Positions 3,098 to 49,890 of a stretch of 64,000 nt of DNA are shown piece after piece. How positions within the stretch are numbered: the stretch's first letter is position 1; the number at the start of each line of letters is the position of its first letter. The translations under genes and the position numbers were made by a program. This DNA comes from a virus, in the IMG/VR virus record IMGVR_UViG_3300020122_000089, positions 1 to 64,000 of that record; one strand, given 5' to 3'. The notes below the pieces were generated by a model. It had not been told where the DNA came from. It saw nothing but the letters and a program-made list of their open reading frames with translations, and ran no database searches.

Positions 3098-3103
3098 GCA
3101 GCC

Positions 3104-3301
3104 ATGACGACCATTGAAGAGATCAAGCAAATGCCTATCAGCCTTGAGTCGGTGAAGCTACTCGTTGAATGGGTCTATTCGGACCCAAAACGATGTAGGA
3201 CTCAAGAGTGGATTTTAATGGCGTATTCGCCATTCGGCGAATACATTGTCAGCCCTTGGACGGTCCATGGTGCAGGTAGATTTTGTTACGGGCGCGATTA
3301 A
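3104..3301 (+). CDS. Small hypothetical protein
   Basis: A 65-residue protein preceded by AGGAGGTAAGCAGCC. No family recognised. Its last ~12 residues overlap the next frame (3267-3395), and joining the two frames by a single-base shift would give one continuous ~95-residue protein. It may therefore be the N-terminal half of a frameshifted gene. Confidence 0.55.
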   Translation: MTTIEEIKQMPISLESVKLLVEWVYSDPKRCRTQEWILMAYSPFGEYIVSPWTVHGAGRFCYGRD

Positions 3302-3395
3302 GTGGCTCGTACCAGAAGATACCGTCCTTCCTGAACTTCGTAAGGCCGTAGATGGACACGTTGCGGCGCTGTTCGCAAAGAAGGAGGCGAAATGA
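3267..3395 (+). CDS. Small hypothetical protein overlapping the upstream gene
   Basis: A 42-residue frame (starts MVQVDFVTGAIKWL, ends AALFAKKEAK) filling the otherwise empty stretch 3302-3391. Its TGA overlaps the next ATG (ATGA), and the AAGGAGG inside its end serves as SD for that gene. It has no good SD of its own, so it is either translated by coupling or is the C-terminal part of the preceding protein after a frameshift. Confidence 0.5.
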   Translation: MVQVDFVTGAIKWLVPEDTVLPELRKAVDGHVAALFAKKEAK

Positions 3396-10832: not shown

Positions 10833-11455
10833 ATCGACACCTCAGGAAGAATCCGTTTTATCTCTTCGCGTTTTTTGAGCAATGTATCAATGAAGGCGTT
10901 CATCACGGCGTCGAGCTTGTTCTGATACGTACGGTCTGGAAGCACCCGAATCAGCACTGGCGGCATTTGGGGATGGAAGCTGATCCAATCCCAATACTCA
11001 GCACCGGTAATCCAAATCGATCCTTGTACTTGTGGAATGTATTTAGCAGGCATACTAGGGTTGAATAGGGTTTTGATGTGCGTACTCGCTTTAGGACATT
11101 TGATTTCAACACCGCCTTTATTATTGTCTATCAATCCGTCAGGGGAGCATCCTGTCATGCGCTGTTCATCTTTATAAACAAATCCTACTTGCTCGACTTT
11201 TGTATCTGCGCGGAATTCATAATAGGCCCTAGCTTCTGGTTCGCGTTCAGTGCCCTGCTCCATCCATTTGTTTGTGTAGTTATTTTCATGACTGCCAGTA
11301 GCCCACTCGGCGAGTAGTTCATACATATAAATTTCTGCTTGGCTAGATAGCTCGCCGCCTGGCGTGAGTATTCGGAAAAACTGACTAGCGGTAGGAATGC
11401 CTAGGTGCGCCTGAAACCACTCCTCGCTTTTTTGCTCGAACGTTTCTACTATCAC
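10829..11455 (-). CDS. YqaJ/lambda-exonuclease-type recombinase nuclease
   Basis: A 208-residue protein with YqaJ-family landmarks: GIPTASQFFRIL near the N-terminus, the catalytic CSPDGLI and the EIKCP beta-strand. Such 5'-3' exonucleases resect double-strand ends and load a single-strand annealing partner. The partner is the adjacent Erf-type gene, with which it overlaps by 4 nt. Together they form a phage recombination pair. Confidence 0.85.
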   Translation of the reverse strand: MIVETFEQKSEEWFQAHLGIPTASQFFRILTPGGELSSQAEIYMYELLAEWATGSHENNYTNKWMEQGTEREPEARAYYEFRADTKVEQVGFVYKDEQRMTGCSPDGLIDNNKGGVEIKCPKASTHIKTLFNPSMPAKYIPQVQGSIWITGAEYWDWISFHPQMPPVLIRVLPDRTYQNKLDAVMNAFIDTLLKKREEIKRILPEVSI

Positions 11456-12303
11456 TCGGATTTTCCTTGTGCCTGCTTGGTTTGTTCCCTTTCTTTTACC
11501 GCCTTAGCGCGGTCAGCTATCGCTCTAATAGCCTTGCCGTAAGCGGCGAGTGGTATATCATCTATTGTGGATACCTTGAGAAATGTCAAAAGCGATTGCT
11601 CATTTCCTTTCGTCTCGCGTAAGCTCTCTCGTATGTGGGCGGCTTGTTCTACTGTAATTTTATCGTCAGCGTCGGGCCCGATTCTTGCATCTATGTCGTC
11701 ATCGGCAGTGGCGATTCCAAGCGCGCCTATCAGCGTGTATCGCTGAAGATATTGAATGGTTGATCCGCGCTGCTGGATTGCATTCTTTCCGCCTGAGGCG
11801 TCGGCCTTACCGGTCATTTCCGCTTGCTCGCTATGCCCCATAGCGTGTGTGATGTGACACGTCACCGTGATTAGCTCGCCTTTATCCTCTATCACCCACC
11901 GCTTAGATAGGAGGCACGATTGCATTGTTTCTTTTATACATTCATCTATATCGCCGAGTGGCGCGTAGTAATACTCAGTCTTGCTACCGGTCGAGTTAGT
12001 AAAGCTGACCAGTTTTCTCCGTGGGATTCGCGGAATCTTCGATTGAAATTCAGCCAGAGCGTCATAATAGGCCGCTCGTGCCTGCCTTATTTGCCATCGC
12101 TCATACAGGTCCATGAGCTTTTGCAATTTTTCAATGTCGAAGTCCTTACGCACCGCAACTGCGAGTAGTTGAGAAGGGTCTGGCGTAGCGGCGATTGCTT
12201 GTATTTCAGGCACGGCCTCTGTCTTGGGCTGTTCAGTGGTCGTCGCCTCGTATCCCGTTACATCGGCGGCATCGAATAAGTTTTCTTCTATTGCAATGGT
12301 CAA
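11452..12303 (-). CDS. ERF-family single-strand annealing protein
   Basis: A 283-residue protein. The central region (RAAYYDALAEFQSKIPRI, YYYAPLGDIDECIK, the QQRGSTIQYLQRYTLIGALGI stretch with GIATADDDID) is characteristic of the ERF superfamily. TTG at 12303 is chosen as start: AAGGAGCG lies 5 nt upstream and TTGA overlaps the upstream stop, whereas the ATG at 12339 lies deep in the upstream gene. It anneals ssDNA in recombination-dependent replication and pairs with the YqaJ-type exonuclease. Confidence 0.85.
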   Translation of the reverse strand: MTIAIEENLFDAADVTGYEATTTEQPKTEAVPEIQAIAATPDPSQLLAVAVRKDFDIEKLQKLMDLYERWQIRQARAAYYDALAEFQSKIPRIPRRKLVSFTNSTGSKTEYYYAPLGDIDECIKETMQSCLLSKRWVIEDKGELITVTCHITHAMGHSEQAEMTGKADASGGKNAIQQRGSTIQYLQRYTLIGALGIATADDDIDARIGPDADDKITVEQAAHIRESLRETKGNEQSLLTFLKVSTIDDIPLAAYGKAIRAIADRAKAVKEREQTKQAQGKSE

Positions 12304-12635
12304 AGTATTCGCTCCTTTGTTCCGGCAGTTACGCCACAAATGCGACTGACGGTAAGATTCGTCAGCCCACGACCTTTATTGCACTCTTGCAATACCATTG
12401 TCATCGCTTTTTGCGGGCCTCTCGCTAGGGCGTATGCGACAAACGGGCCGTTGGTTTGCATTTTGGCCTTCACTTCATAAACACCCTTCGCCTGCCCTGC
12501 CAATCTTTTCGCCTTTCGCTTCTTATTACCGTAAACATACCGTAATGGTGTGACGTGTGATTTTGGCTGCTCAACATGCTCAAGGGCGGCCTGTTTCATT
12601 CTGTCGGCTATTGCTATCGCGGACTGAAAACTCAT
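12300..12635 (-). CDS. Basic hypothetical protein
   Basis: A 111-residue Lys/Arg-rich protein (KKRKAKRLAGQAKGVYEVKAKMQTNG). Overlaps both neighbours by 4 nt. Its place before the Erf gene and its basic charge would fit a nucleic-acid-binding role, but no family is recognised. Confidence 0.6.
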   Translation of the reverse strand: MSFQSAIAIADRMKQAALEHVEQPKSHVTPLRYVYGNKKRKAKRLAGQAKGVYEVKAKMQTNGPFVAYALARGPQKAMTMVLQECNKGRGLTNLTVSRICGVTAGTKERIL

Positions 12636-28351: not shown

Positions 28352-28729
28352 TCACCGCTCCTTTATGTATAAAACGCCTTTTGACTTTGACATTCCTAAT
28401 CTTTGCGCTATTCGCTCAGACGCTTCGGTTTCTGCTATCATTATAATACCGGGAAATATCCCGCCTTGCTGGCTGATTCTTTCTTGCATTGAATAGAGGG
28501 CATCTTCCCAGATTGTTGGGTTTGTCCTGTGGTCTGGACTGATCCATCCCGGCCCTAGATGTGGAAGCACTTCACATGAAACAAATGCTACTATTTCACC
28601 GGATTCGTTTTCTGCAACTCGGATTGAACCTACGGCAGGATGTGGAAGTGGCCAATCATGCTCGCGGAATATGTTTTCAAGTTTTTGAAATTCAGATGGA
28701 GGAAGCCATCTGAAATAGATTGCGCTCAT
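28352..28729 (-). CDS. GNAT-like acetyltransferase-fold protein
   Basis: A 125-residue protein from ATG 28729, which overlaps the giant gene's TGA (ATGA). SIRVAENESGEIVAFVSCEVLPHLGP and ASERIAQRLGMSKSKGVLYIKE resemble strands of small GNAT-fold phage proteins. Catalysis is unproven. Confidence 0.5.
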   Translation of the reverse strand: MSAIYFRWLPPSEFQKLENIFREHDWPLPHPAVGSIRVAENESGEIVAFVSCEVLPHLGPGWISPDHRTNPTIWEDALYSMQERISQQGGIFPGIIMIAETEASERIAQRLGMSKSKGVLYIKER

Positions 28730-31700
28730 TGATTCGCGGCGCGAGGTGCTGCCATTTGCCAAATCCCTGCCTGCTTTGCGCGTTCAATTTTCTGCATTAC
28801 AGAATCTACCTTGGTTTTTGGTAGCCTACCGGACTCTATGGCTTTTTCAAATGACTCTTCTTTTTCAAGAATAATAGGGGCTATTTCTTTGCGTTCTGAA
28901 TCTGTGGATTTGTTATCAAGGAAGGCGTCTAGCGCTGCTTCTAAATCTATACTTGGATTGTGTTTTACAAGATATTGGAGCGGCGTTAATTGTGCCCTAT
29001 CCTTAATACGATTCACCGTTGCGTTATCTGCGCCGTCCTTGCCGGGCGGTAGAACGCCTTTTTCAACATGTGTCTCGTAAAGTTTTTGGGCGTCTTGGTG
29101 TTTTCCGGCCTTGATAGCGTCAGAGATTTGTTTTTCAGCATCTATACGGGCTTTTGTATCTTCCGGAGGAACGGCATCGCCATGTTGCGCCCGTACTCTT
29201 TCTAGTAGATTTTTCTCCATTCCGGTCTTTGGTTCTTTTGTTTCGTAAGTATGCGACGACATGCCAAAAAAGGCGGGCGATGCTTTTGCCACGCCTATAG
29301 CGCCAGAGTCTTTCCATCCTTCATAAGCATCCTTGAAAAACATCGGGGTTATCAATTGTGCGATTTGATTCAATGGCGTTGCTTCTTTTCCTGTTACATC
29401 TTTTCCTTGATATAGATTTACTAGAACGCCTGGAGCGGGCGCTAGTCTGCCCCTTAAAAAGTGCAGCATTGAATCAGCGCCCTTTTTCATCTGACTAGCC
29501 ATGAAATACTTCGACATTAACATTGACTGGCGAACGTAAGGCGCTAATCCCGCTGTAAGGTCGTAATGGGTATTCCCTACTACGACTTTACCAAAATCTG
29601 AATCTTCTGGATTTAGCGTAACCTTTGCACCGGCCAAAGAGGCCATTCCTAGTGTGGTGGCGAGCACTCCTGTATATTCAAACATCTTCTTGAGGGCTAT
29701 CTTTCGTGTTGCAGGATCCATGTCCGTATAGGTTTTTGGATTCAAAACATCTAGCCTAGATTTGATATATCGAGGACTGAAAAACACTGCATTCGCGGCC
29801 TCCTTCCATGCTTCATTTATTTGGCCTAAATCACCGCGACCGGTGGCGGCGTTAACCCAACGCGCCATGTCGTAATAGGGTTTTGGGTCTTTGTTAAAAT
29901 CCTTACCGGCATCATCTAGCGCGTGGAAATACTTCGAGCCTACATTCAAACGCTGCGAGTTTAAGAAGGTCGTGAATGCCTGATCGGAGGATCGTACCCA
30001 AGGAATTTTATGTGCCAATCGACTCATGAATGCTTCTTCTGAACGGCCTAAACCATGCCCAGTAAATTCCACTCCAGTATCTCGGAGTCTTTGAAAATCT
30101 GGGTGCAATGCCAATTGTTTTTGAGCCTCTTTATAATTCTCTTTGTTCATAAAGAAGGCCTTGAGCATATCTTTGGCAGGTTTTGCTAATCCTTGAACTG
30201 GCTCTGTTAGTGAAAATATATCACCTTGGCGGAATACTGCATGTAAATTCCCGGTAGCAATCATCGTGCGCGGAATGTTTGCTATGTCTATCGCTCGGCG
30301 GATCGGAGATGCTCCTTGCCACCATTGTTTCATCGTTTGCGGTGGCGCTTCGTATGGTTCTGGGCCTTCTTCGCCTTCCTGATAGCTTTGTCTTGTAGGT
30401 GTTGGACCTCTCGTACCTATTGGCTGTTCGGTTCTGCCGGTTGGTGGAATCGCTTCGTCTATATCTAAATCGGTTGGCATTCCTTTTGGAATTCTTCCGG
30501 AAGATTGCCCTGCCACTTTTCGCTTGGCTATCTCGGCCTGTTGAAATACTCGATATAGATTCTTTTCAAGGGCGGGCGTGTATTTTTCGCCAAGATTCAC
30601 CTTCATGTAGCTTTGAAAGGTTTTGTAATCGCTACCGCCTCGGTCAAAGAATTCCTTAGCTGCATTTGTGGCCTCGTCTGAAACGCCTTTGATTTTAATA
30701 CCACCTAAAGATACCGCGCCTTCTTGGTTTGGTGATTCTACGTCCATTAACATTTTTATCTTTGCGTAGGTGGATTCAAGATGTGGACGGACTTGATTGC
30801 CAAGCTGTTTTATCATTTGATTAGACCAGCCGCCAAACTTCCTTGCTAGTTGGTAGGTTTTATACCCTGTAATCAATGCCATATCCGCCATATCTTGGAC
30901 CGGATTCATATTGAGATGTTTGCCAGACATTGACTCTGCGAGCCTGGCTCTTGCATCTACAACCATCGGAGGTTCGCCTTCGGACATGCCAAAGAGGGGC
31001 TGGCCGGTTTTTAGGATGGAGGCTTTCATTTCGGGGGTGATATCAAGCGAATGAACGGAGACGTTTTCACCTTGACGCTGGCGGTTTAGCGCGTCAATGG
31101 CCGATTCCCCTTCCCGTCCTTGTAGTTCGCCGGTAAATGGAATATGAATCTGTGTTTCACCAACCTTCCCACCCCACCTCTTTGTATATTTAGATAGGAA
31201 ATTAGGGATTAGGTTGTCGTATAGGGTTTTCTTGCCTTCGCCGCCAATTTTTAGGTCAATGCCCTTATAAACAGCGGCCGCCTCGCTACTGCCGTCAATC
31301 CTTTGCGCTAGTTCCTTTCCAACATAATCAGGCAGTCGAGACGCCTGGATATCACGTAGGTCAATCACGGGCGTTCTGCCGGATGTTTCGCCCTGATAGC
31401 CGCGCAGGTCATAAGTACCATTCTCGTTTCTATTCCATCCTAGCGAGTCAAGCTGTTCGGATAGACTATACCTATCCGCCACCTGCTGACCCGTAGCCCA
31501 TGATATTTTGTCGTATCCATTCCTAACCCCATAATCTAGTACACGCTTCATCGCCAATTCATGGGATTTGCCACGGAAAGGAAGGAGGGGTTCGAGGCGT
31601 TGTAATTCTTGCGCCACAGATTGCTTGTTGCCCGTTCCACCTACCGCCATAATTGCATCTTGCGGCGTAGGTGCGCTCCTTGTTTCACCTTCCACTTCGC

Positions 31701-34700
31701 CTGATTGATTTCGCACTATCCACTTTCTTGCATTATCATCAAATTCAGCCGTCCATCCATTTGTATCCTCTGGCGTCTCTGAAAGTTTTTTCTTTAGCCT
31801 CTGTATATCATTCTGCAAATCATCTTGATATTCGTCTAGGTGGAGGATTTTTTCACCGCTAGGACCTACCCTATCGTTTACACGGAGGAGGGCTATGCGG
31901 TTCGTGTCGGCCTCGGGGATACCGTAGGCGTGAGCACCGGGAACTACGTAGCCACCTTTCGGCCCAAGCCCCCCCTGCTGTTGAATGTACTTCCGTATGG
32001 CGTCATCTGGCGTATCCGCCGACGTAAATCTCCTACCTTGTCGATCCCGTACAACGTGTTTTCCATCTTCTTGTGCGACATAAAATCCATCGGGTAATTC
32101 TAGTGTTAATAGGGGTGTTCTATCAATCGGGAGTGATAGCGTTAGCTCCCTATGGTTTTCGCCGCCGGGGGTGGTCCATTGTGTAAACCGTGGCAACCCC
32201 TCTTGCTTTTCTAATGATCCAGCGATCAATCTTGCGTCTCGTCGAATACGAAGGGGCATTTCATCCGCTGTAAGAAAATCTGAGTGAGGAGCGGCGCCTC
32301 GCCTTACAAACACAACTGACGGATCAGCTCCAGGGACGACGTCCGTAATATATCCCGCCGCCTCTAGTCGCTGTCGGGCTGCGGCGTATTCTGGCGTACC
32401 CTGTCCACCAAACTGCCTTTCTTGCAGCTCCACCCTATTCTTCGCAAGATAATCTAATACTTCTTGTTTTGTTACGGGTTCTTTTGCGGAGGATTTGCGC
32501 TGGAGGAAATCATAAAGGCCAGTCCAATGCGCTTCATCGTTTGGGCGCTCTATTCCGCCTTCGCCTTTGACTATAAAACCACCGCTACGGAGAATACCTT
32601 TTACCTGCTCGGCGGATGCTTTGTTTGGCATTCTTAATTTAACGGCGTTTTCAAGAGGGCTGTACCATTGCGGTGCTTCGTTGTGAAGTTTTGACCAAAC
32701 ATCTTCTAGGTATGGACGCACTCTTTCCCCAAGGCGTTCTACCATATCCTTCGTCCATTCTTTGATATTATCTGCGGTGTATTTGCCGGCTTTGTAGGCG
32801 TCCCAACCTGTGATTATGGCGGTGTCGTATAGGGCGTGGATTGGGTTTGCGCTTAATGTGTTACCGCTTAATCCTTGGCGCAATCTGTCGCGGGATTTTT
32901 GCACGAATTCTGGCTCTTTCTCGGCGCCTTCCATTGACTGATCTATTGCTTCTTTCGCCGCCTTCTCGCCAATATATCCCTCAGCGTCATGAATATTTTT
33001 ATAGACTTGTGGAAAATGCTTTTGAAGTTCTGCATCTGATAAATCGGATAGTCTTGTCGCGTTTGGATTTACCCGTCTTACATCCGCCATTGTTGGATGT
33101 ACGTCTGAAAGAAGCCCTACATCGGGCCAGTCTATTTCTGGAACTTTTCCCATCGCCAAGCGGTCAGCACCTTTGATTCTAGTATTTCCTGTTTCGCCAA
33201 AAGGACTTTGTATTATACGTGTTTGCGCGTCAGGTGTCAAGACCATTAGCTTTTCACCACCGGGAAATCTTCCTACTACCGTATAATCAAGATTACGCCC
33301 ACCGCTTCTATATTGCACTATGGTGGAGGGCTGACGCCCGGTAGCGGCATCTATACCCCGTACAGTACCGGTCATTTGTACAGGGTCTTTGAACTCCATC
33401 CTCATCGCCTTAAAGGCGTCTAATCGCTGGCGTGCGTCAAGACCTGACTGTTGCATTTCCCTGTGAATATCTGGCACTTGTTCGGCGTTTATTTCGTCTA
33501 CTGCATTACGGTGAATGTTGTAGGTTTTTCCGGTTTGTGTATTTTGTACTTTGTACGCTTCGCCTTCTTGGCCAAGAACTTTTAATGGATTTCCGGTTCT
33601 GCGGTCGTATGCAGTACCAGTGGTTTCTTGACCATACTTCTTACGGAGGAATTCTCCTGCTTCTTGCGGGGTTGCGCTTTGTGGAATTACATTTTCCACT
33701 CGCTGCCCAGTGGTAGGTTTTTGAACCACCGGCGGCGGCACTCTTTTAGTAGGGGGCGTAACGCCTTTAGCAACACCTTGTTCTGTTGGTACATTTGCCG
33801 CACCTCGTTCGCCGTTCCAGGCCGTCATGCCATGTCGTATAAAATAAATACCGTTTTCGAGTGGCTTTTTATCGTCAAGGCTGATTCGTTCTAATCCCCA
33901 TTTTCCGTTCGCATCGGGTGCGAATTTCAACACTGTACCGGGAGGGTCGTCGCCTTTCGCTAACATGTGCGCTTCGTCAAAACGATTGTTGGTAACCCCC
34001 TTTTTCAGCCAAGCCTCTAGCATTTTCAAGTCGCGGTAGTGGGTGACAACGCCAACCTTTTGCGGATTATCTTCATAATCAGCCATCGCCTCGCGGAGGC
34101 CGCCTACAAAACGGTCACGGAAATTTCCAAAACTTTCACCTGGTTTTGTACTTGCTTCGCCACGCCCTTCGGCTGGAATTTGTGGGTTCTTAATCAAGCG
34201 GTGCATTTCGTCTAGGACGTCTTGAGTTGGCCTTCCTTCATGCTGACCTAAATACCAAGGATCGAAAGCATCGCGGCTGTCTAGCCTTTGTAGGTTTGGA
34301 TTTGACTCAGCTATTCCATCCTTGGTTTGACGGACGCGCTCCATCTGTTCATTGCCATACAGTACATCAAGACCGCCTTTTGCGGCTAGTTTTGCACCTA
34401 TTTCGCGGGCTTGCTGTACGCCTTCTGGCGCAAGTGGGATATTTGTAGAGCCACGGATTACATCAACGCCAGACTTCATTCCTGGCAGTTCACTCTGTCG
34501 CTTTTGATCTATTAGGCTAGGCAGTGCTTCGCGTCTTGCCGCCTCTAATTCTGGCGTCACCGCTGCGGGTTGGTATCCTTCTAGTCTTCTGTTGATTTCA
34601 TTTTGGACGTCAGTATCCATTCCTATTTTTGGCCTTCCCGCTGGTGGTAGTTTGGTTTCTTCCGGAACTGTCGGGGTACCGCCACGCTCCGTCGCCCCTA

Positions 34701-37389
34701 ACGCGGGCTTAGTATCAGAAGCAATGCTAGCAGCGTCGAATGGAATGTAGACCGTATGAGTTGTGTTGCCAAAGTCCGGCGAATCTCCGTCAGTAATGAA
34801 TCCGTCGTAACCTAGTTTGCGAAAGACCTCCCGGACATCGCGGTCGCCCAGTTGCTCAAAGAAATTATCATGCGGCTCGATGCCATGCTGCCCTAAGATG
34901 TCGTAGAAGTCGGGACCGCCATCCTCCGTTATCGTATAAGGGTTCCGCATTGTCACTTTCAGTTTCGTGACTTTCTCGCCGTATGCCTTAGCCGCCGAGC
35001 GTGAGTCCGTCAGGTACATGCCGTCACGGGCCTTAAACTCACCATCGGTTCCGTGATAAAGTGTCAGTTCTTTCCCCGAAGCGCGCACGGGCTCTGCGTT
35101 AGGTTGGACTGTAGGCGTCGTGCTCGATGGTTTTTCTGCGGACCTGCCTTCTTTCCAAAACCATTGATATCCACGTCTTGAGGTTGCAGGTGTTACTTTT
35201 GTCGTAGTGTTTGGGTTTGCCACTTCGTATCTTGCCGCTGCGGCTTCTGCGTTTTCTTTTGTGGAATATGGTACTGCGATTTCACGTCGCCACTCTGGTT
35301 TTTCTTTGTCAAGCCAACGTGGGTCGAATCTTTCAAGGCTGCCGTTTTCATGCCATGCTTCTACTATTCCATCTGGAAGGGCTTGTCTTACGTTAAGAGG
35401 TTCGCCGCTTCCTTTCAAATACATCTTGCCGGATGGTTCTTCTGTTAATGCTTTTGAGATTGGGTAGGTGTTCCCCGTCCGAGGATTTTTTACCACCCAA
35501 GCATTTCCTTGCTCACCCACACGGAGAAGTGGAAGCCCTAAGTCGCGATGATAAATTACATCTGCTGGCTTTGTCGTTGGAGGTGTAGCGGCTTCGGGCT
35601 GTACACCAACTTGCACTTTTAAGGATTCTGGTATTTGTACTCCTTCAGAACCTTTTCCAACCACGTCAAGATTTGGGCGTTTGTATCTTTCGGCTGAGTA
35701 TTTTCCTTTTGCGGGGCCTTCTGTTGGCGCTTCAAACGGGCCTCGCGCCATCTGCGCTAAAACTTCTGGCGGTGCAGGTGGAAGCCCTAGCCGTCGCTGC
35801 GCTTCGGCGAAGTCTTGCACCTCAGGCTTCGCGGCGCCACGTTCACGGGATATAAGCCCGGCCAACGGCAATAACCCCATTTGTACGGCGCCCGGTATTG
35901 CCGCCAAAGCCGCTTGGCCAGGTGTTGCGCCCTGCGTTGCGGCTTCAAGATACGGAGGCGCCGCACCTACACCCGCCATATACGGTGCTTGTACGCCTAT
36001 CGGTAGCTCACTGCCAGCATGTAGTGCGCCGCCTATTAGCGCGTTCATTGCGGCGGATTTTGCAGCTTCAGCAGGCCCACGGTGCGCTTGTTCTGCCGCG
36101 CCTAGCCCAGCGAATCCTAACGGACCACCTTCTGCCGCTAATAGATATTCTGGTAATTGAAATGCGCCTTGCGCTACGCCGCGGACAATTTGATGTCCGG
36201 GCCCTGGCGCTTGTTCTGCTTCTGCTTGAGCCTGTTCGGATAGTGTTTGCGCTAACGGGCTGACTGGCGGTCGTTGTAATAGCTGACTGGCGTTACCCGT
36301 AAGTGCCGGGACAACATAATGCGCGACGTTGCTGCCTAATTGAGCGAGACCTGCACCTGTCGATGTAGCGGTAGACTGAATATCACTGGCGAGTGGTGGT
36401 TGTTGTTTTGGCGTTGGAACAGAACGCTCGGCTTGCGCTACTTCTGGATTTAATAGCGGAGAGTTTCTTAGCTGTTCAAGTATTTTTGCGTTACGGGCGG
36501 ATAATGCAATGTTTAGCCTACCGTTTTGTTTTCCAATTTGTGCGGCTAACTGGTCGGGGGTTGCATCTAATTCAAACGGATCATATCCTTCATGCTCACC
36601 GGCGCCCCATTGGCGGGCTACTGGTACTTGCCAAGGTTCAAACCCTAGCCCCTGCGTGGCGTATAGCTGCGTCACTTGCGCCTTAAATTCTTCCGGAGTA
36701 ATTCGTTTTGCCTGATAGTCGGCTAGGATGCTGGAGGCGTCTATCGCGGTCGCCCCGCCTATTCTACGATAGGATTTTGGCGTTATCGGTTTTTCGGTAG
36801 GCGGGCCGGCGTTGATTGTGATTTCGCCCAGCTTTGGCAATAATCTCTTGACGTTGGCATCGCCAAACCTAGCAGGTATCCCTGTATCTGGCGCCGTACT
36901 AACCGAGCCTGTATTACTATACGCCTTAGAGCCTGCATATGGATTTGCTGGGGCGGCAGGTGTTGGTTCTTCATCATCTGCAAACTCTACGCCTTCTGGA
37001 AGTATGCCGGGTTGTGCCGTCTGGGATTGAAAACCCGGAATGGGTTCTAAATGCCAATGCGGGCCGGTGCTCCAAGATTCCTGCCCGGTTGATTTGATTG
37101 CTTTTAGCCCGTAGTTTGAGAGGTTTTGATCCATCCAAGAAAGATGCTCTGGCTGTAGGTTTTTCGTTCGCACATCGAACGCATCTCGCTTTGCAGGTGT
37201 GCGGTGCATTGGGTTGTTTGCTGTATCACCAGTAACATCAAGCGGACGTCCGAACTGAGACTGAAACGCCTGTTGGAATTTGTAGAAAGGCGTTTGTTCG
37301 CTGTCGTCGGCGAAGTCAACACCTTCTGGTAGGATTCCGGTCGGAGGTGGTGATGGCTGACTATTTGGTTGTTGCGGGTAGGAGGACAT
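28726..37389 (-). CDS. Giant polyvalent virion protein (2,887 residues)
   Basis: By rough residue: 45-120 a peptidase M15-like segment (MHRTPAKRDAFDVRT, TGPHWHLEP); 770-890 an ADP-ribosyltransferase-like domain (LTLYHGTDGEF, MYLTDSRSAAKAYG); 970-1195 a histidine-phosphatase-like domain with RHGMTAWN at its C-terminal side; 1500-1565 and 2155-2210 a duplicated motif (NPIHALYDTAIITGWDAYK and NPVQDMADMALITGYKTYQ); 2300-2750 a conserved C-terminal region typical of large phage polyvalent proteins. It is probably packaged and injected, with effector activities. A palindrome occurs mid-gene (30494-30503). The region near 34680-35150 differs in codon style. Confidence 0.7.
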   Translation of the reverse strand: MSSYPQQPNSQPSPPPTGILPEGVDFADDSEQTPFYKFQQAFQSQFGRPLDVTGDTANNPMHRTPAKRDAFDVRTKNLQPEHLSWMDQNLSNYGLKAIKSTGQESWSTGPHWHLEPIPGFQSQTAQPGILPEGVEFADDEEPTPAAPANPYAGSKAYSNTGSVSTAPDTGIPARFGDANVKRLLPKLGEITINAGPPTEKPITPKSYRRIGGATAIDASSILADYQAKRITPEEFKAQVTQLYATQGLGFEPWQVPVARQWGAGEHEGYDPFELDATPDQLAAQIGKQNGRLNIALSARNAKILEQLRNSPLLNPEVAQAERSVPTPKQQPPLASDIQSTATSTGAGLAQLGSNVAHYVVPALTGNASQLLQRPPVSPLAQTLSEQAQAEAEQAPGPGHQIVRGVAQGAFQLPEYLLAAEGGPLGFAGLGAAEQAHRGPAEAAKSAAMNALIGGALHAGSELPIGVQAPYMAGVGAAPPYLEAATQGATPGQAALAAIPGAVQMGLLPLAGLISRERGAAKPEVQDFAEAQRRLGLPPAPPEVLAQMARGPFEAPTEGPAKGKYSAERYKRPNLDVVGKGSEGVQIPESLKVQVGVQPEAATPPTTKPADVIYHRDLGLPLLRVGEQGNAWVVKNPRTGNTYPISKALTEEPSGKMYLKGSGEPLNVRQALPDGIVEAWHENGSLERFDPRWLDKEKPEWRREIAVPYSTKENAEAAAARYEVANPNTTTKVTPATSRRGYQWFWKEGRSAEKPSSTTPTVQPNAEPVRASGKELTLYHGTDGEFKARDGMYLTDSRSAAKAYGEKVTKLKVTMRNPYTITEDGGPDFYDILGQHGIEPHDNFFEQLGDRDVREVFRKLGYDGFITDGDSPDFGNTTHTVYIPFDAASIASDTKPALGATERGGTPTVPEETKLPPAGRPKIGMDTDVQNEINRRLEGYQPAAVTPELEAARREALPSLIDQKRQSELPGMKSGVDVIRGSTNIPLAPEGVQQAREIGAKLAAKGGLDVLYGNEQMERVRQTKDGIAESNPNLQRLDSRDAFDPWYLGQHEGRPTQDVLDEMHRLIKNPQIPAEGRGEASTKPGESFGNFRDRFVGGLREAMADYEDNPQKVGVVTHYRDLKMLEAWLKKGVTNNRFDEAHMLAKGDDPPGTVLKFAPDANGKWGLERISLDDKKPLENGIYFIRHGMTAWNGERGAANVPTEQGVAKGVTPPTKRVPPPVVQKPTTGQRVENVIPQSATPQEAGEFLRKKYGQETTGTAYDRRTGNPLKVLGQEGEAYKVQNTQTGKTYNIHRNAVDEINAEQVPDIHREMQQSGLDARQRLDAFKAMRMEFKDPVQMTGTVRGIDAATGRQPSTIVQYRSGGRNLDYTVVGRFPGGEKLMVLTPDAQTRIIQSPFGETGNTRIKGADRLAMGKVPEIDWPDVGLLSDVHPTMADVRRVNPNATRLSDLSDAELQKHFPQVYKNIHDAEGYIGEKAAKEAIDQSMEGAEKEPEFVQKSRDRLRQGLSGNTLSANPIHALYDTAIITGWDAYKAGKYTADNIKEWTKDMVERLGERVRPYLEDVWSKLHNEAPQWYSPLENAVKLRMPNKASAEQVKGILRSGGFIVKGEGGIERPNDEAHWTGLYDFLQRKSSAKEPVTKQEVLDYLAKNRVELQERQFGGQGTPEYAAARQRLEAAGYITDVVPGADPSVVFVRRGAAPHSDFLTADEMPLRIRRDARLIAGSLEKQEGLPRFTQWTTPGGENHRELTLSLPIDRTPLLTLELPDGFYVAQEDGKHVVRDRQGRRFTSADTPDDAIRKYIQQQGGLGPKGGYVVPGAHAYGIPEADTNRIALLRVNDRVGPSGEKILHLDEYQDDLQNDIQRLKKKLSETPEDTNGWTAEFDDNARKWIVRNQSGEVEGETRSAPTPQDAIMAVGGTGNKQSVAQELQRLEPLLPFRGKSHELAMKRVLDYGVRNGYDKISWATGQQVADRYSLSEQLDSLGWNRNENGTYDLRGYQGETSGRTPVIDLRDIQASRLPDYVGKELAQRIDGSSEAAAVYKGIDLKIGGEGKKTLYDNLIPNFLSKYTKRWGGKVGETQIHIPFTGELQGREGESAIDALNRQRQGENVSVHSLDITPEMKASILKTGQPLFGMSEGEPPMVVDARARLAESMSGKHLNMNPVQDMADMALITGYKTYQLARKFGGWSNQMIKQLGNQVRPHLESTYAKIKMLMDVESPNQEGAVSLGGIKIKGVSDEATNAAKEFFDRGGSDYKTFQSYMKVNLGEKYTPALEKNLYRVFQQAEIAKRKVAGQSSGRIPKGMPTDLDIDEAIPPTGRTEQPIGTRGPTPTRQSYQEGEEGPEPYEAPPQTMKQWWQGASPIRRAIDIANIPRTMIATGNLHAVFRQGDIFSLTEPVQGLAKPAKDMLKAFFMNKENYKEAQKQLALHPDFQRLRDTGVEFTGHGLGRSEEAFMSRLAHKIPWVRSSDQAFTTFLNSQRLNVGSKYFHALDDAGKDFNKDPKPYYDMARWVNAATGRGDLGQINEAWKEAANAVFFSPRYIKSRLDVLNPKTYTDMDPATRKIALKKMFEYTGVLATTLGMASLAGAKVTLNPEDSDFGKVVVGNTHYDLTAGLAPYVRQSMLMSKYFMASQMKKGADSMLHFLRGRLAPAPGVLVNLYQGKDVTGKEATPLNQIAQLITPMFFKDAYEGWKDSGAIGVAKASPAFFGMSSHTYETKEPKTGMEKNLLERVRAQHGDAVPPEDTKARIDAEKQISDAIKAGKHQDAQKLYETHVEKGVLPPGKDGADNATVNRIKDRAQLTPLQYLVKHNPSIDLEAALDAFLDNKSTDSERKEIAPIILEKEESFEKAIESGRLPKTKVDSVMQKIERAKQAGIWQMAAPRAANQ

Positions 37390-37413: not shown

Positions 37414-37977
37414 TTAGGCGCATTGTCTCTTTGTACGTTTTATCAACCGTAGTTTTGCAGGTGTAGGCTTCCATTGCGGCGCTGGCGGCGGCTGTTTGTT
37501 CTCTTTTTTCTTCTTTTTTAATCTGTTCTGTTTTCTACTTTGCTTCAACGCCAGCCAGTACGCGGTCTCGCCTGATTCGTTTCTCGCAATTGTTTTATGA
37601 TATTCAACAACAGCTCGCGTTATCGCCGCTTCAAATATCCACGCTGAATAGTCAGGCTTGTCAATAATCTTTTCGATTGGATATGATTTTACGTTACTAT
37701 TTTGCAGCCGTACTACAGAGAATCCAAGCGATTTCAAAAACTCCGTTCGCCGCTTATCGTATACCACCGCATCAGGCGTTGAGTGCTGCTTGCCGTCTAT
37801 TTCAACGATTAGCATTTTCTCGGGTAGTACGAAGTCTGCTATATAGAATCCTATGACGTGCTGGCAATGGAAATTCAACCTCGCCATAGTAAGTCTTTTT
37901 GCAAAACGCCTTTCGTATTTAGTCTGCTCGTAGCGCATCTCTTTTGCGCGTGAGTGCAGTTCGTCTAATTGTAACAT
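37414..37977 (-). CDS. DUF559/VSR-like endonuclease
   Basis: A 187-residue protein. The order YIADFVLPEKMLIVEIDGKQH, then YDKRRTEFLKSLGFSVVRLQNSNV is the DUF559 fold of VSR-type nucleases (D and ExD-like catalytic residues). A basic C-terminal tail follows. It may be a homing or repair nuclease. It is served by a promoter ~190 nt upstream. Confidence 0.8.
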   Translation of the reverse strand: MLQLDELHSRAKEMRYEQTKYERRFAKRLTMARLNFHCQHVIGFYIADFVLPEKMLIVEIDGKQHSTPDAVVYDKRRTEFLKSLGFSVVRLQNSNVKSYPIEKIIDKPDYSAWIFEAAITRAVVEYHKTIARNESGETAYWLALKQSRKQNRLKKKKKENKQPPPAPQWKPTPAKLRLIKRTKRQCA

Positions 37978-39652: not shown

Positions 39653-40159
39653 TTAAGACGCCTTTGATAGATACGCTTCGAGATTGAAGATTTGTTTACA
39701 ATTTGAGCAGGCGATTAAATGCGCCTGCTTGTGAAATATCTTTGCTGACGTTACACCGCCATCTGTATCGTGATCTACGAAACCGCTGAGTACAAGCACC
39801 ATCCTAGCGGGCGATTGAAATGTCTCTTTACAAAACATACATTCATATTCATGTTCACGCATTGCATAAGCGCCCTCTTTTGCCGCGATTGCGTCTTTTA
39901 ACGACGCCGCATGTCCATCAGGGTCATTAGTATGATGCGCTGCTGCGTTTATAAGTTCAAGCTGATAATGCGCTGAGGCGATTGCTTTAGCCCTGCTATC
40001 GGTGAATACATAAGGATGATTTAATGATTGCTGTTGACGTTCTTCTGCTAATGCGGATTCAAATTCACGAAGAAGCTCAACGCCATCCTCTTCTTCTTTA
40101 TCATTTAGAATAGAGAGGATTTTGAATCTAAGATCGTTTGCGCGTTGCGTTATATCCAT
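39653..40159 (-). CDS. Hypothetical protein with Cys pairs
   Basis: A 168-residue protein with ECMFC and ACSNC near the C-terminus, a possible zinc ribbon, and an N-terminal helical half. The ATG follows directly and in frame after the upstream TAA. A palindrome (39641-39650) follows its stop. Confidence 0.6.
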   Translation of the reverse strand: MDITQRANDLRFKILSILNDKEEEDGVELLREFESALAEERQQQSLNHPYVFTDSRAKAIASAHYQLELINAAAHHTNDPDGHAASLKDAIAAKEGAYAMREHEYECMFCKETFQSPARMVLVLSGFVDHDTDGGVTSAKIFHKQAHLIACSNCKQIFNLEAYLSKAS

Positions 40160-41293
40160 TTAGGTTCCAATGAATCCGCCTACGGCAGGAACGTCGCCAC
40201 CACCGCCACTGCCAAATTGCTGCTGCCCACCAATCCCACCGGTAGGGACTACGCTGAAAGGCTCTGATGCAACAGGATTTCCCGCTGTAATGCCTAAAGA
40301 ATTAGTGTTGCGCTCTTTTAGGTTCTTCCTTACAAACTGTACGGGGGTTTTACCCGTAACCTGCATCACCCTTGCGATTTGTAAGTATGGGCCTGCCGTG
40401 TTTATAGTAGTCGAAGTGCGGAAACAAAGATAAGTGTCCTTCGCCGTGAAGGCATCCGCTCTAATCATTGCCGTAGCTTCTACATAGAGAGGGGTGGTGG
40501 TGAATAGTGTACTTCCAAGCGAGATAATATCAGACTGCTGGACGGCAGCATGGACGGTTTGTACGGTCGCCGTTCCGCTAAGGTTTGGCGTTACTTCAAA
40601 CGACTGATCGTTTGTAATTGAAAGGACGGTGCGGACGTCATTGTTGATCGCCACCTCAGCGCCTACCCTTAGTTCGGAGGTTGCAAGACCTAATCCGTTG
40701 TGTGAATTAACGGTATGGAGGTTCGCGTTTATATCCCAAGTGTCTGTCAAATCAAAAAGACTCGCCAGTAATAGGTCGAGATTAGCGGTTAAGCTGCTAT
40801 TAGAGGATAAGAAGAAGGTCCAACTCTTGAAATCGCCTCTTACGATGTTGGTGAATAAATCCTGTATAATGTACGCCTTATTTGCGGCGGAATCATTTTG
40901 ACGCCAAAACGCTAAGTGGTTCGCTTGATCCCACCGGCCACGAGTGCTACCGGTTCCAATTCCAACAAATCCGCCCGTGGATATTCGCCACTGCTGCCAA
41001 TTGCCCATGGTGGTAGGGGTAGTGCCATCGTCGTTTGTAAAATCGCCATTCCATAGATCGTTGTCAAATGCCGTGTTAGGCGAATAATCAATCTGTCCAC
41101 TCAGGGCTGGTATCGCCACAGAGGCCGCGCTTGTAGTTTGACCAACTGAGTTAGTCAGTCGAAATTGGCATATAAGCTGGACGTCGCCAAACAGTTTCCT
41201 TAATCGTTTTAGCGAAATTGGAATGCTTACTATGGTACCACGATCCGTCACATCGTAAAATACTACACCTGCGGCGCTAGTTGGGTTATCCAA
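40160..41293 (-). CDS. C-terminal part of a virion protein after an in-frame TAG
   Basis: A 377-residue frame contiguous and in phase with 41294-42757, separated only by TAG. Its first codon is TTG with no SD. The start (DNPTSAAGVVFYDVTDRG, VQLICQFRLTNSVGQTTSA) reads as the second half of an Ig/FN3-like domain begun upstream of the TAG. It is probably made by readthrough, or is a broken gene; separate TTG initiation is possible but unsupported. Confidence 0.55.
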   Translation of the reverse strand: MDNPTSAAGVVFYDVTDRGTIVSIPISLKRLRKLFGDVQLICQFRLTNSVGQTTSAASVAIPALSGQIDYSPNTAFDNDLWNGDFTNDDGTTPTTMGNWQQWRISTGGFVGIGTGSTRGRWDQANHLAFWRQNDSAANKAYIIQDLFTNIVRGDFKSWTFFLSSNSSLTANLDLLLASLFDLTDTWDINANLHTVNSHNGLGLATSELRVGAEVAINNDVRTVLSITNDQSFEVTPNLSGTATVQTVHAAVQQSDIISLGSTLFTTTPLYVEATAMIRADAFTAKDTYLCFRTSTTINTAGPYLQIARVMQVTGKTPVQFVRKNLKERNTNSLGITAGNPVASEPFSVVPTGGIGGQQQFGSGGGGDVPAVGGFIGT

Positions 41294-42757
41294 CTAGTTT
41301 AGATTCAAGCTAGTAGTCGCTGCAAAATCCGAGATGTTTAACTCTACCAATTTAACAGAAGCGATATTCGTAGCGTTCGCCATTGGCAGCTTGCAATGTA
41401 ATTTGCCTCTTACAAAGAAAAACTTGGGCGCATCTGGAAGAACCGGCGCCGTTAAGTCCGCCGGTATATCGTCTGGTACGCCTGTCGAAAAAGAGGCTCG
41501 GGTAAATGTAAGCTGTAATCCACCTATCGCGGTAATTACCACCTGTAGATCGTAAGTCTGAGATGGCTTGAACCTTGCGCCATCTGCGATAACTATAGAT
41601 TGGGCACCTGCGACTACTAATTCATTATGTTTCAAGGTGGTTTTGTCTATAAAAAGAACATAAGCACCTACACTTTCAGAAGATAGCTTCCGGAAGACTT
41701 TGACATTTTTAGGCGCCACTGGCGTTGCAGGTTGCGTAAAATTTAAGGTTAACTTAGCCGCCTTTGAAGTGTAAGGAGGCGTTGTACTATCTATTGAAAG
41801 ACTTGGGCTAGTCAGTAGTGTAGGGTCAACTGAAAACCCTCCGGCTGAAAAAGTGCATCCACCGCCCGTACTTACGGATTTGTCATTTCCAATCCAGGTG
41901 ATGTTTGCGGTCCAGTTTATTTGATCGCCTGGAATGTATCCTGTCTGTGTGATGTCTACAAATCCTCGATTAACCTTAGTTGGGGAGTTTGGATCTACCT
42001 GTGTTAGCTCAACGCCATTCAAAACGTGTGTAATATGCTTTGCAACGAAACTACCTGATTTAGCCACTACCACGACGGTATCAGAATTTGAAGCACCCCA
42101 CGTTTGGGCATTACCAGATGCGTCGAGTGGTGCCCAAACCCTGTAAGTAACAATTGCTTTATAGTCTAGGTTTGGGTCTAATCCGTTTGCTGCAATTGCG
42201 CCTCCGACTATGCCACCCGTTATCCCTTGTATAAGTCCGCAGTTAGGATCCGATGGAACGCCAAACAGTGACCCTAACGAAAACGTAATGAGATAATCAG
42301 ATTCGTTTCTTGGTGAATCAGGAAAATCAATCGCAGGATTCTGTGTTCTCGCTCCATTTGAGTCTACAGAAACGAGCTTGATACAGCCATATTTCTTCCC
42401 TGCGTATAGCGGGATTGGAAAATCAAAGTCAAATACTGGCGGCGTCGGGGATGGTATTTCAATGTCGGCCGAGTTTATTCGCCATGTCACTGTGACGGGA
42501 CTACCGGTACCTGTATACTCTTCTAATACCACCTTGAGCTTATTAGTATTGAACGGAACTGCACATCTGAGAGTTACTATTACCCTGCCGTTTTTGCCAG
42601 GCTTTGTAGCCACAGGCCACGGGCCTATAGGCGTTAGGTCTGTAGGATTGCCCGCACCAGTAGTTCCTGTGCTTGAAGATTGCGCTGCAATTTGCTGGCG
42701 CAGGTCCTCAAGCATGTTCTGCGTCGTTGGATAATCTATGTCGCCGCCTATACCCAT
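41294..42757 (-). CDS. Virion protein with Ig/FN3-like domains, ends at an in-domain TAG
   Basis: A 487-residue protein. It looks like tandem beta-sandwich domains (RVIVTLRCAVPF, VTVTWRINSADIEIPSPTPP, KAAKLTLNFTQPATPVAPKNVKVF), as in tail or neck decoration. The ending, KLVELNISDFAATTSLNLN, stops at TAG while the same domain seems to continue in the next frame. Upstream AAGTAGGAA serves as SD and abuts the -35 box of the antisense LAGLIDADG gene. A palindrome lies mid-gene (41687-41696). Confidence 0.6.
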   Translation of the reverse strand: MGIGGDIDYPTTQNMLEDLRQQIAAQSSSTGTTGAGNPTDLTPIGPWPVATKPGKNGRVIVTLRCAVPFNTNKLKVVLEEYTGTGSPVTVTWRINSADIEIPSPTPPVFDFDFPIPLYAGKKYGCIKLVSVDSNGARTQNPAIDFPDSPRNESDYLITFSLGSLFGVPSDPNCGLIQGITGGIVGGAIAANGLDPNLDYKAIVTYRVWAPLDASGNAQTWGASNSDTVVVVAKSGSFVAKHITHVLNGVELTQVDPNSPTKVNRGFVDITQTGYIPGDQINWTANITWIGNDKSVSTGGGCTFSAGGFSVDPTLLTSPSLSIDSTTPPYTSKAAKLTLNFTQPATPVAPKNVKVFRKLSSESVGAYVLFIDKTTLKHNELVVAGAQSIVIADGARFKPSQTYDLQVVITAIGGLQLTFTRASFSTGVPDDIPADLTAPVLPDAPKFFFVRGKLHCKLPMANATNIASVKLVELNISDFAATTSLNLN

Positions 42758-42801: not shown

Positions 42802-43704
42802 ATGACCAGAATACATACATTAAACGAGTCGCGTTTTGCACGGGTGGATTCTGAGGATGCGGCCTATTGGTTAGGCTTTATTGCCGCTGATGGATGCGTG
42901 ACCGACCAGGGTGATTTCGCCATACAGCTTGCCAGGCAGGATGAATGCCACCTCCATGATTTACGAGATTGGTTTGGCAGTACACACGCCATCAGTCGTA
43001 AAGAACTACCATACCCTTCTTCATCTTTTACATTTCGATCACGTATAATCGCTGATAATCTTGCCAGGTATGGGGTCACCCCTAGAAAATCCATAACCTT
43101 AAATTGGCCGTCAGAATTAAACCCCACCTTATATCGTCATTATATCCGTGGATATGTCGATGGCGGCGGAGGGTTATATTCCGGTAAGGCTCGATCAAAC
43201 CAATCAACCTTCCATTTTAGCGTCATCGCCACTAAAACATTTGCAGATAAGCTACAGTCGGTGCTGATGTCAGAGTGTCGATTAAAGAAAACTAAGCTAG
43301 GTAAAAGTAAGGCTGGAATGGTTATTGTTGAATACGGAGGATTCTTGCAAGTTAAGAGAATTTTTCATTATCTTTACGATGGCGCTACTGTTTATTTATT
43401 GCGTAAACGATTTCCGATTCAATTAGCATTAAGCATGCACGTAAGACCTTCTAGCCAACCAACCGACGAGCAGTATCAAAGGTGCGCAACATTGCCGCAT
43501 GATGAAATTTGCCAACTATATATCGATGGTGATAGCACTGTTGACCTTTCTCGTAAATATAATGTTTCCATTGGCGCTATAACAAGTATAGTAAGGAAAC
43601 ATGGGCTATTAAGATCAACCAAGGAGGGTACGAGACTATACTGGGTAAGAAAGGGTAGCGAAATTCTTCCGGAGGAAATCAAATCCGAACTGGATGTTCT
43701 ATGA
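42802..43704 (+). CDS. LAGLIDADG homing endonuclease
   Basis: A 300-residue protein on the strand opposite its neighbours. The first LAGLIDADG helix is AAYWLGFIAADGC, followed by a DNA-contact region (FAIQLARQDECHL); a second helix is YIRGYVDGGGGLY. The C-terminal part has a helix-turn-helix-like segment (DLSRKYNVSIGAITSIVRKHG). It is predicted to cut a long asymmetric site and spread itself. The end SEILPEEIK is a one-mismatch palindrome copy. It overlaps the minus-strand gene end by 26 nt. Confidence 0.85.
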   Translation: MTRIHTLNESRFARVDSEDAAYWLGFIAADGCVTDQGDFAIQLARQDECHLHDLRDWFGSTHAISRKELPYPSSSFTFRSRIIADNLARYGVTPRKSITLNWPSELNPTLYRHYIRGYVDGGGGLYSGKARSNQSTFHFSVIATKTFADKLQSVLMSECRLKKTKLGKSKAGMVIVEYGGFLQVKRIFHYLYDGATVYLLRKRFPIQLALSMHVRPSSQPTDEQYQRCATLPHDEICQLYIDGDSTVDLSRKYNVSIGAITSIVRKHGLLRSTKEGTRLYWVRKGSEILPEEIKSELDVL

Positions 43705-45391
43705 ACAAACCCTCCGCACCCACAACCTGCTTGCCGCCAGCATCGCTACCGCTCATCCCTATTGCAAAACTATGAATTTCCTGGATATCTAAATGCTTGA
43801 ACTGGCCTGTTTGATTCGCACCTTGAGAAATGTTTGTTCCTTGCGCATTTGACGTTGAGAGATTAAGATCGCTATAGATATCGAGCCGGTGGGCAACGTC
43901 TGCAATCGACTCGGCGCCTATAAAGGTTTTTCCAAACGCGGCAAAATCACCTGCTTGAAATTGAGATACTAAACTCCAACCTGTACCGCCGCCTGTTTCG
44001 GGGGTGTAAAGATTACCTGCCGAGTCAGAGAACAAAGCCCTTCCGTTTACAGTATCAGTTACCGCTGTAACTATCGAGGCAGGCATGTCCATTGGGGTGT
44101 TCCATTGGGCGAGATAACGATTGTAGGAGATACCGATCGAGCCATTAACATAAAATACACTATCCGATGCGGGGTCGTAACATACCACCACGTTGCCAGC
44201 GGCATACCCGTTAGCAGCAAAAAATTGCATAACAGGGGCGGCGAAAGAGGTTGCTTCGTCGTTCGGGTCGCGATAAGAGCTGCCACCTAAACTGTATCTA
44301 TCTCTGACAGGGCCGCGAGTGCCAAGCCAGGCGTATATCTCACCTCCAACGGTGGCGATTTGATTTGCACTTACCACACCTGTGGTTGGCCAAATTGGGT
44401 AGACGTTTAATGGGCTAATAGTGCTCTGTGATGCTGATACAAGATTCACACTTGAAGCGGTACAAACAAGGACCCGACCTTCAACGCCACTTCCTTTTAC
44501 AGCAGTAATCGTTCCACCGCCGGGAATGAATAATACAAAACTTACGGGATAGGCTTCTGGCTTGTTTGGGTACGAGGGGGATAATCCAGCACCACCATAA
44601 CATCCTGCCGCTACTATGACAGAATTGATTGCAAAACAAAAACCACAGGTGGGCGGAACGCTGAAGGTCTGAGGAGCTAAATCGCCAAGCTGCGCGTCTA
44701 TCCATCCAGGGGTTGTGTCGTTTGGTACTTGAATCGTATATGGAAGAGTCGGAATAGTAGTGTCGTAAAGATGAAAGTAAGGACCGATAGAACCAAACCC
44801 GCGCTTTGTAGCGTAAATGCCTATCTTGTTTGCACCAGCAGGAAGGCCGGGAAGGGCTGTGATATTTATTCCATGATTAGTGACTGATATGACATTTGAA
44901 GGTGCGCTGACGCTCGATTCGCCACCTGTTAAGGACCTGATTCCAGTAACGGCAATTGAATAAGCACCATTGTTATGCCCGGCGACGCCACTATCGGCTA
45001 TTGTTGGCGCGCCTGGTGGTAAGAGGCCAGCAGCTACGGCCGAGCTTCCTGTGTAAATCGTTACCGATCCGCCTTGAACAGCGCCAAGCGTTACGCCGCC
45101 AACCCTTGCAAATCCAGAGCCAGCGAAGAAATAAATTCCATTGCCAAAAGCCTGTACTATACTTCCGCCACCGCTTAACCCTCCATAAGTAGAGGCGACA
45201 TTTAATAGCGGATTCACGCCACCTGAACTAGCAACGGACCCACCAAAGCCTTTCGAGGTAATTAGTAACCCTTTACCACGTACCCATAGATTTTTACCGG
45301 CCAATAGGGTATGTGGTACGCCAAAGATTGGCGCAGTAGAGGGCCAATAGCCGTTTTCAAAGAAAAATCTCGCGGGTATTCTATCGCTCAT
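43679..45391 (-). CDS. Large virion-type protein, unknown
   Basis: A 570-residue beta-rich, Gly/Ser-rich protein (MSDRIPARFFFENGYWPST; WVRGKGLLITSKGFGG). It looks like a tail or capsid-surface protein, possibly a beta-propeller. The ribosome site is the palindrome (GGAAGAAAATG, core 45395-45404). No family recognised. Confidence 0.55.
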   Translation of the reverse strand: MSDRIPARFFFENGYWPSTAPIFGVPHTLLAGKNLWVRGKGLLITSKGFGGSVASSGGVNPLLNVASTYGGLSGGGSIVQAFGNGIYFFAGSGFARVGGVTLGAVQGGSVTIYTGSSAVAAGLLPPGAPTIADSGVAGHNNGAYSIAVTGIRSLTGGESSVSAPSNVISVTNHGINITALPGLPAGANKIGIYATKRGFGSIGPYFHLYDTTIPTLPYTIQVPNDTTPGWIDAQLGDLAPQTFSVPPTCGFCFAINSVIVAAGCYGGAGLSPSYPNKPEAYPVSFVLFIPGGGTITAVKGSGVEGRVLVCTASSVNLVSASQSTISPLNVYPIWPTTGVVSANQIATVGGEIYAWLGTRGPVRDRYSLGGSSYRDPNDEATSFAAPVMQFFAANGYAAGNVVVCYDPASDSVFYVNGSIGISYNRYLAQWNTPMDMPASIVTAVTDTVNGRALFSDSAGNLYTPETGGGTGWSLVSQFQAGDFAAFGKTFIGAESIADVAHRLDIYSDLNLSTSNAQGTNISQGANQTGQFKHLDIQEIHSFAIGMSGSDAGGKQVVGAEGLFIEHPVRI

Positions 45392-49008: not shown

Positions 49009-49890
49009 ATGCGTAGATTTAACCGAATCAAAAAAGAGTGCCTACATGATAAAGAGCCGGACGGCGCGGTGCATATTCCACTTGGACATGGGCAATGTGC
49101 TATAGTTGACATGGAAGATTATCCGACATTGATAGCATACAACTGGATGGGTGGGCGATATGCGTATACAGTCATCGGCGGACGTAAAAACCCCCAAAAA
49201 ATTTACATGCATCAACTAATACTATCAACACCAAATGGGCGTCAGGTGGATCATAGAGACAGGAATCGGATGAATAATAGACGTATAAATCTAAGGCCAG
49301 CCACCGCATCCGAACAGGGACATAACAAGTCGGTTAGTAGTTCTAGTACAACGGGCTATAAAGGCGTGTCGCGCTCTGGCAATAATTTTTGTGCATATAT
49401 TAAGACAAACGGGCATCGAATCATTCTTGGCACATTTATTACCGCAGAGGGTGCTGCGTATATCTATGACGATGCGGCTAGGATTCATTTTGGAGAATTT
49501 GCAGCCTGTAACCTTCCTCCCGATCCTCAGAAGGTAATTCAGGCAAAGCTCAGACAATGCAAAAGAAGGGGCCACCCTCTCCATATCGGCGTATATCGTA
49601 GGGGCGATAAATGGGCGGCGCAGTTCAAAAAGGATGGCGCATGGATTCATTTAGGTCTATTCGCGACAGAGCAAGAGGCGTACCAAGTAACGGTGTTGGC
49701 TACTAACGGAGATTTCACCAAAAAGAAACCAGGTGAAGCGCAAAGAAAATTCACAGCCGAACAGATACTGGATATCAGGAAAATGCGTCGCGACAAGGTG
49801 CCTTATTCTACCATCGCCACGTATTTCTCTACTTGTATTGCTACGATTCAAAGTATAGTTTCGTATAGGTCCTATAAGGATATCCCCTAA
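49009..49890 (+). CDS. HNH homing endonuclease with AP2-type domains
   Basis: A 293-residue protein. The HNH core is MHQLILSTPNGRQVDHRDRN with NRRINLRP. Two AP2-like DNA-binding repeats follow (TGYKGVSRSGNNFCAYIKTN, HIGVYRRGDKWAAQFKKDG). The C-terminus has a helix-turn-helix-like TAEQILDIRKMRRDKV. It is predicted to be a free-standing homing enzyme. Its stop overlaps the opposing small gene's stop by 3 nt. Confidence 0.88.
   Translation: MRRFNRIKKECLHDKEPDGAVHIPLGHGQCAIVDMEDYPTLIAYNWMGGRYAYTVIGGRKNPQKIYMHQLILSTPNGRQVDHRDRNRMNNRRINLRPATASEQGHNKSVSSSSTTGYKGVSRSGNNFCAYIKTNGHRIILGTFITAEGAAYIYDDAARIHFGEFAACNLPPDPQKVIQAKLRQCKRRGHPLHIGVYRRGDKWAAQFKKDGAWIHLGLFATEQEAYQVTVLATNGDFTKKKPGEAQRKFTAEQILDIRKMRRDKVPYSTIATYFSTCIATIQSIVSYRSYKDIP

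Follow-up and report, generated by a model that had tools for sequence, protein, structure and literature searches.

An in-frame amber codon in a presumed virion protein gene of an IMG/VR phage: interrupted gene, gene boundary or recoding?

In the virus record IMGVR_UViG_3300020122_000089 of IMG/VR, a minus-strand frame ends in an amber codon which is followed directly by TTG and by a second long open frame in the same phase (Table 1). Does this TAG interrupt a single gene, does it mark the boundary between two genes, or is it decoded to produce a longer protein? The window analysed here comprises bases 1-64,000 of the record, whose total length is 104,058 bases. We tentatively favour the view that ORF1 and ORF2 together form one gene, encoding a virion protein of about 865 aa, which has been cut by a recent amber mutation or by a consensus error. 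The weights given to this and to all other readings below are judgements and were not computed.

Table 1. Features at and around the amber codon and other annotated elements (window coordinates unless preceded by L002)
Feature	Position	Strand	Remarks
HNH_3 endonuclease-like gene	49009-49890	plus	strand opposite to neighbouring genes
Upstream gene	43679..45391	minus	presumed structural
LAGLIDADG_3 endonuclease-like gene	42802-43704	plus	strand opposite to neighbouring genes
ORF1	41297..42757	minus	487 codons, ATG start at 42757; N-terminal part, presumed virion protein
N-terminal segment	42302..42643	minus	residues 39-152; aligns weakly with the TAG-spanning segment
Predicted FN3/Ig-like beta-sandwich spanning the TAG	41093..41446 (approximate)	minus	residues 438-555; low confidence
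Perfect 8-bp hairpin CUAGUUGG-AUAAC-CCAACUAG	41277..41297	minus	contains UAG and UUG
In-frame TAG (amber)	41294..41296	minus	context AAC UAG UUG
ORF2	40160..41293	minus	377 codons counting the TTG (41291-41293), phase as ORF1, TAA at 40160-40162
First in-frame ATG of ORF2	41006..41008	minus	codon 96, without Shine-Dalgarno
Next gene	39653..40159	minus	ATG abuts the TAA of ORF2, same phase; ordinary gap-0 boundary
DUF559 endonuclease-like gene	37414-37977	minus	
Four group I introns	L002:333-576, 721-1637, 2376-3306, 4024-4969	minus	Rfam RF00028, 66-91 bits

Coding signal and possible starts on either side of the TAG

A reading made from the letters alone had described the two frames as contiguous, in phase and separated only by TAG followed by TTG, and both the coordinates and the coding signal agree with this. 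There is only one in-frame TAG across ORF1 and ORF2, and ORF2 is free of a second lesion. A stop-free run of 377 codons was found in none of 1500 dinucleotide shuffles (0/1500). The first 95 codons of ORF2, from the TAG up to its first ATG, were free of stops in 0.4% of 4000 shuffles; their codon-usage score is +8.4, a value reached by 0.2% of shuffles. Over the same codons, the other two sense frames include 8 and 6 stops, with codon-usage scores of -0.5 and -7.0. The score of the shared frame is positive on both sides of the TAG, including the part of ORF2 beyond its first 95 codons. Both flanks look coding in one phase, and at the level of the sequence the interruption is genuine.

Candidate starts for a separate ORF2 protein are poor. 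The TTG had been noted to be without a Shine-Dalgarno sequence (SD), and indeed its duplex energy is +0.4, which is equalled or bettered by 86% of random sites. The in-frame GTG (codons 15 and 59) and ATG (codon 96) triplets have no SD distinct from random sites either and, among later starts in ORF2, a strong SD is absent until codon 214. A possible start directly 3' of a stop, as in the TTG after the TAG, is expected by chance in a few percent of cases.

Searches for relatives of the interrupted gene yielded no usable homologue of ORF1 or ORF2 in single-sequence scans of IMG/VR with each frame separately or in GTDB genomes, and no usable match with a degenerate DNA pattern that spanned the TAG and left the stop codon free, by tblastn against phages and plasmids, or in PDB (phmmer), Pfam and PHROGs up to E=10. 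A catalase-like match to ORF2 (PDB phmmer E 0.011; Pfam 0.17) was taken as chance. Relatives of the phage itself were sought through TerL, DnaB, portal, a neighbouring gene and an ERF-like recombinase. One syntenic fragment, L007, was found (13,256 bases, DnaB 68% identical); it spans the replication region only, without the interrupted gene.

A predicted domain across the amber codon

To the sequence-only reading, the strands before and after the TAG had looked like one Ig/FN3-like domain. When residues are numbered across the junction with the stop read as Q, residues 433-562 align collinearly, before as well as after the TAG, to residues 39-152 nearer the N-terminus of this protein (p = 0.03 by shuffling). 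The internal-repeat score falls in the top 0.5-8% among windows of other phage proteins, varying with the scoring scheme, and the alignment of each side of the TAG alone is not significant.

For residues 425-570, AlphaFold2 run on the single sequence gave a low-confidence model (pLDDT 46.6, pTM 0.41); a full-length model was useless (pLDDT 32) and was set aside. With the model of residues 425-570, the best Foldseek match had an E of 0.065, and C2, potassium-channel and FN3 domains were mixed at the top. The best VIA-align alignments were mostly to FN3/Ig-like folds, with Z up to 6.9, although values under 8 may reflect a mere common arrangement. They span model residues 14-131, around the TAG at model residue 64. 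Among the top matches, at Z 6.7-6.9, is the tail tip of T5/DT57C (PDB 7zhj, 8hqz), whose FN3/Ig-like domains are like the low-confidence model of residues 438-555 in fold but share no sequence similarity with it. Pfam and PHROGs gave no match for an FN3/Ig-like domain across the TAG. The repeat alignment and the model folds speak for the proposed domain, the former being weak and the latter of low confidence; together they suggest that one FN3/Ig-like beta-sandwich spans the TAG, a reading which we regard as likely.

If ORF1 and ORF2 are one gene, the single amber codon would have arisen either by a nonsense substitution, recently acquired in the phage population that was sampled, or by a metagenomic consensus error, and would fall inside this predicted domain. 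The main translation product would then have 487 residues, while production of the remaining 377 at the C-terminal end would depend on rare suppression events or on a weak restart at the neighbouring TTG. This is consistent with the coding signal in one phase on both sides of the TAG, with the poor starts in ORF2 before codon 96, with the alignment of the TAG-spanning segment to the N-terminal segment and the likeness of its model to FN3/Ig-like domains, and with an ORF2 that carries no second lesion, as expected if the change is recent. It is also consistent with the state of the TAG itself: no recoding elsewhere, no tRNA found, and a UAG-U context that is not leaky (PMC5289835). A nonsense mutation had been among the options listed earlier and stays the simplest of them: a single TAG in an otherwise intact frame of about 865 codons; a nonsense change, or a tight gene boundary, is the simplest account because no mark of programmed readthrough was found.

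Several points weigh against the one-gene reading. The domain evidence is weak (pLDDT 47, pTM 0.41, best Foldseek E 0.065, mixed beta folds), no homologue with a sense codon at the position of the TAG was found, and the stop is followed, as it happens, by a possible start codon. In addition, a contig consensus normally mirrors the majority of molecules, and C-terminal loss from a virion protein should be costly. We infer the single domain across the TAG, the recency of the change and the identity of the product as a virion protein.

Termination, reinitiation and recoding at the UAG

The opposite possibility is that the TAG is a true gene end. ORF1 and ORF2 would then be two translationally coupled cistrons, in which ribosomes end ORF1 at the UAG and reinitiate at the adjacent UUG, with ORF2 being a protein in its own right and the hairpin over UAG-UUG closing the UUG unless ORF1 is translated. 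This was missing from the options of the sequence-only reading, and yet the genome offers precedents. Genes are densely packed, with many -4 and -1 overlaps besides gap-0 boundaries, and in the window three in-phase gap-0 boundaries read TAAATG (62673/62672, 40160/40159 and 18360/18359). At the last of these begins a DnaB-type helicase, which is also present in the relative L007. Contiguous in-phase stop and start codons are not diagnostic, because these three normal boundaries share the arrangement; "contiguous, in phase, poor SD" is simply a description of normal boundaries in this genome. All three have a weak SD but, unlike the TAG-TTG site, start with ATG. Non-ATG starts also occur elsewhere, in at least one gene. 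The ERF-like gene at 11452-12339 (named from the look of its sequence and not by a family search) has its first ATG at codon 76, within the conserved region and beyond residues conserved in L007; this recombinase gene probably starts at codon 13, a TTG preceded by a strong SD.

As in known cases of termination-reinitiation coupling (PMC10666635, PMC6728339), the two frames are same-strand neighbours with zero spacing between stop and start, coupling being dependent on overlaps or very short gaps (PMC10666635), and both codons are located in the hairpin stem, which could serve coupling by hiding the UUG. The site differs from those cases in having a gap of 0 and not the common -4 or -1 overlap (PMC10666635, PMC6728339), and in having a UUG without SD and a predicted domain divided between the two products. 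Each half would receive an incomplete beta-sandwich if the evidence for one domain holds. The missing SD lowers the probability of coupling but does not abolish it, since coupling may work without one. With TAG-TTG in place of TAA-ATG, a complete absence of SD and a possible division of a domain, the site would still be unusual among the boundaries of this genome, and we regard two coupled cistrons, the second reading in our ranking, as somewhat unlikely.

Decoding of the TAG as sense throughout the genome can be dealt with more briefly. TAG terminates 11 of the 33 tallied ORFs, ORF1 included, which bears out the earlier view that it is a normal stop elsewhere and that global recoding is unlikely. 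ARAGORN detected no tRNA in 104,000 of the 104,058 bases of a record which may be incomplete, and Rfam detected none; the proposal of a suppressor tRNA, for which a search for a CUA anticodon had been recommended, fell on this result, and a phage-borne suppressor tRNA-CUA was rejected. Because of the 11/33 ORFs ending in TAG and the lack of tRNAs, genome-wide recoding is excluded in practice. As in amber-recoded code 15 phages (PMC10879173), an in-frame TAG is found here in a presumed late structural gene; in contrast to them, the present case involves a single TAG, TAG is still a common stop and no suppressor tRNA was found. The idea that TAG is a sense codon in phage or host, by code-15-like recoding with a suppressor tRNA, would fit the presence of only one in-frame TAG, and a tRNA in an unassembled part or a suppressor host is conceivable, but neither would leave TAG as a common stop. 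It is largely refuted already, and we give it next to no weight.

Recoding confined to this one UAG is a different matter. The A1 protein of Q-beta is an extension of a virion protein by programmed readthrough of a stop codon. Programmed or leaky amber readthrough in this manner, which the sequence-only reading had also proposed, would here yield a virion protein of 487 aa as the major form and one of 865 aa as the minor form. As in Q-beta, a single stop is followed by a long stretch of coding sequence in phase, here in the gene of a presumed virion protein; this part of the proposal is real, the 377 codons being intact and having coding signal from the first codons on. The site at the stop is also structured, the hairpin having a z of -2.4 to -2.6 in short windows, although this fades to -0.8 in a 131-nt window. 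The usual stimulator of readthrough is an RNA structure a few bases downstream of the stop. The TAG hairpin does not look like one of this kind because the stop sits within it, so that a terminating ribosome would melt it, and no canonical stimulator is found at the usual downstream distance. Known readthrough products extend a complete protein; here, the stop is apparently inside a domain. No homologue shows conservation of the arrangement. Finally, a U at +4, as in the UAG-U found here, reduces readthrough in E. coli (PMC5289835). In contrast to Q-beta A1-type readthrough, the context is one of strong termination, without a canonical downstream stimulator and with the stop apparently in mid-domain, and programmed readthrough is poorly supported; we consider readthrough, programmed or leaky, improbable.

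A hairpin-dependent hop, loosely like that in T4 gene 60, would also produce the long protein. Peptidyl-tRNA-Asn would leave the AAC before the UAG and land on an in-phase AAC nine bases downstream of the first base of the stop (AAC UAG UUG GAU AAC). The UAG directly follows the would-be take-off codon and is inside a perfect stem-loop, an arrangement shared with the take-off site of gene 60 (PMC11194080) and the sole respect in which the hairpin resembles that site. A matching in-phase codon is available downstream. Unlike gene 60, there is an in-phase open frame in place of a 50-nt non-coding gap, no KKYK-like peptide precedes the stop and the landing codon is within the same hairpin. Moreover, it is not unusual to meet a matching codon within ten positions. 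The 104 kb contain 23 perfect hairpins of at least 8 bp, so that the chance of one covering a given codon is about half a percent, and this one drew attention only in hindsight; at least one of the others spans an ordinary gene end (L003:7358-7381). Equally, a quasipalindrome-templated mutation could have generated both the TAG hairpin and the stop within it. We see only a very slim chance for a hop and, taken jointly, readthrough and hopping remain distinctly unlikely.

If a full-length protein is nevertheless made from this UAG, it would be by an unusual type of recoding which completes a domain and does not extend a finished protein. The specific form of this, structure-dependent recoding (readthrough or a short hop) at a hairpin-held UAG in the middle of an FN3-like domain, with the folded virion protein arising as the recoded product only, would be quite a long shot. 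As it stands, the main lesson of the case is that frames lying end to end in one phase say little in favour of readthrough in phage genomes with dense gene packing, in which gap-0 in-phase stop/start boundaries are ordinary.

Introns, a giant protein and dispersed palindromes

Four group I introns are found within 5 kb elsewhere in the record (Table 1), three of which hold mutually related endonuclease-like ORFs. The gene which they interrupt probably encodes the major capsid protein, as judged by look and place only. Such an intron was also considered for the TAG site and rejected; none is present in the window, and the frames are in phase. At 28726-37389 the window encodes a protein of 2887 aa in which a histidine phosphatase domain is accompanied by an ART-PolyVal match below threshold; it may be a giant polyvalent protein that travels in the virion.

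The palindrome CTTCCGGAAG is present in 57 copies in the 104-kb record (35 in the window, 7 in L002 and 15 in L003), mostly as TTCTTCCGGAAGAA or one base off. Sites in the window, where 35 were observed against 0.04 in window shuffles, include those at 7997, 45395, 61862 and 62678. In the window and L003 together, 40% of the sites precede an ORF start by no more than 40 nt, compared with about 5% of random positions. They are possibly operator- or stoperator-like sites, or hairpins near ribosome-binding sites. The relative L007 has six palindrome sites (743, 2789, 3761, 7261, 11058 and 11811), all six with TG/CA at the centre and not CG (TTCTTCYRGAAGAA), whereas no full site of the present phage is centred in this way.
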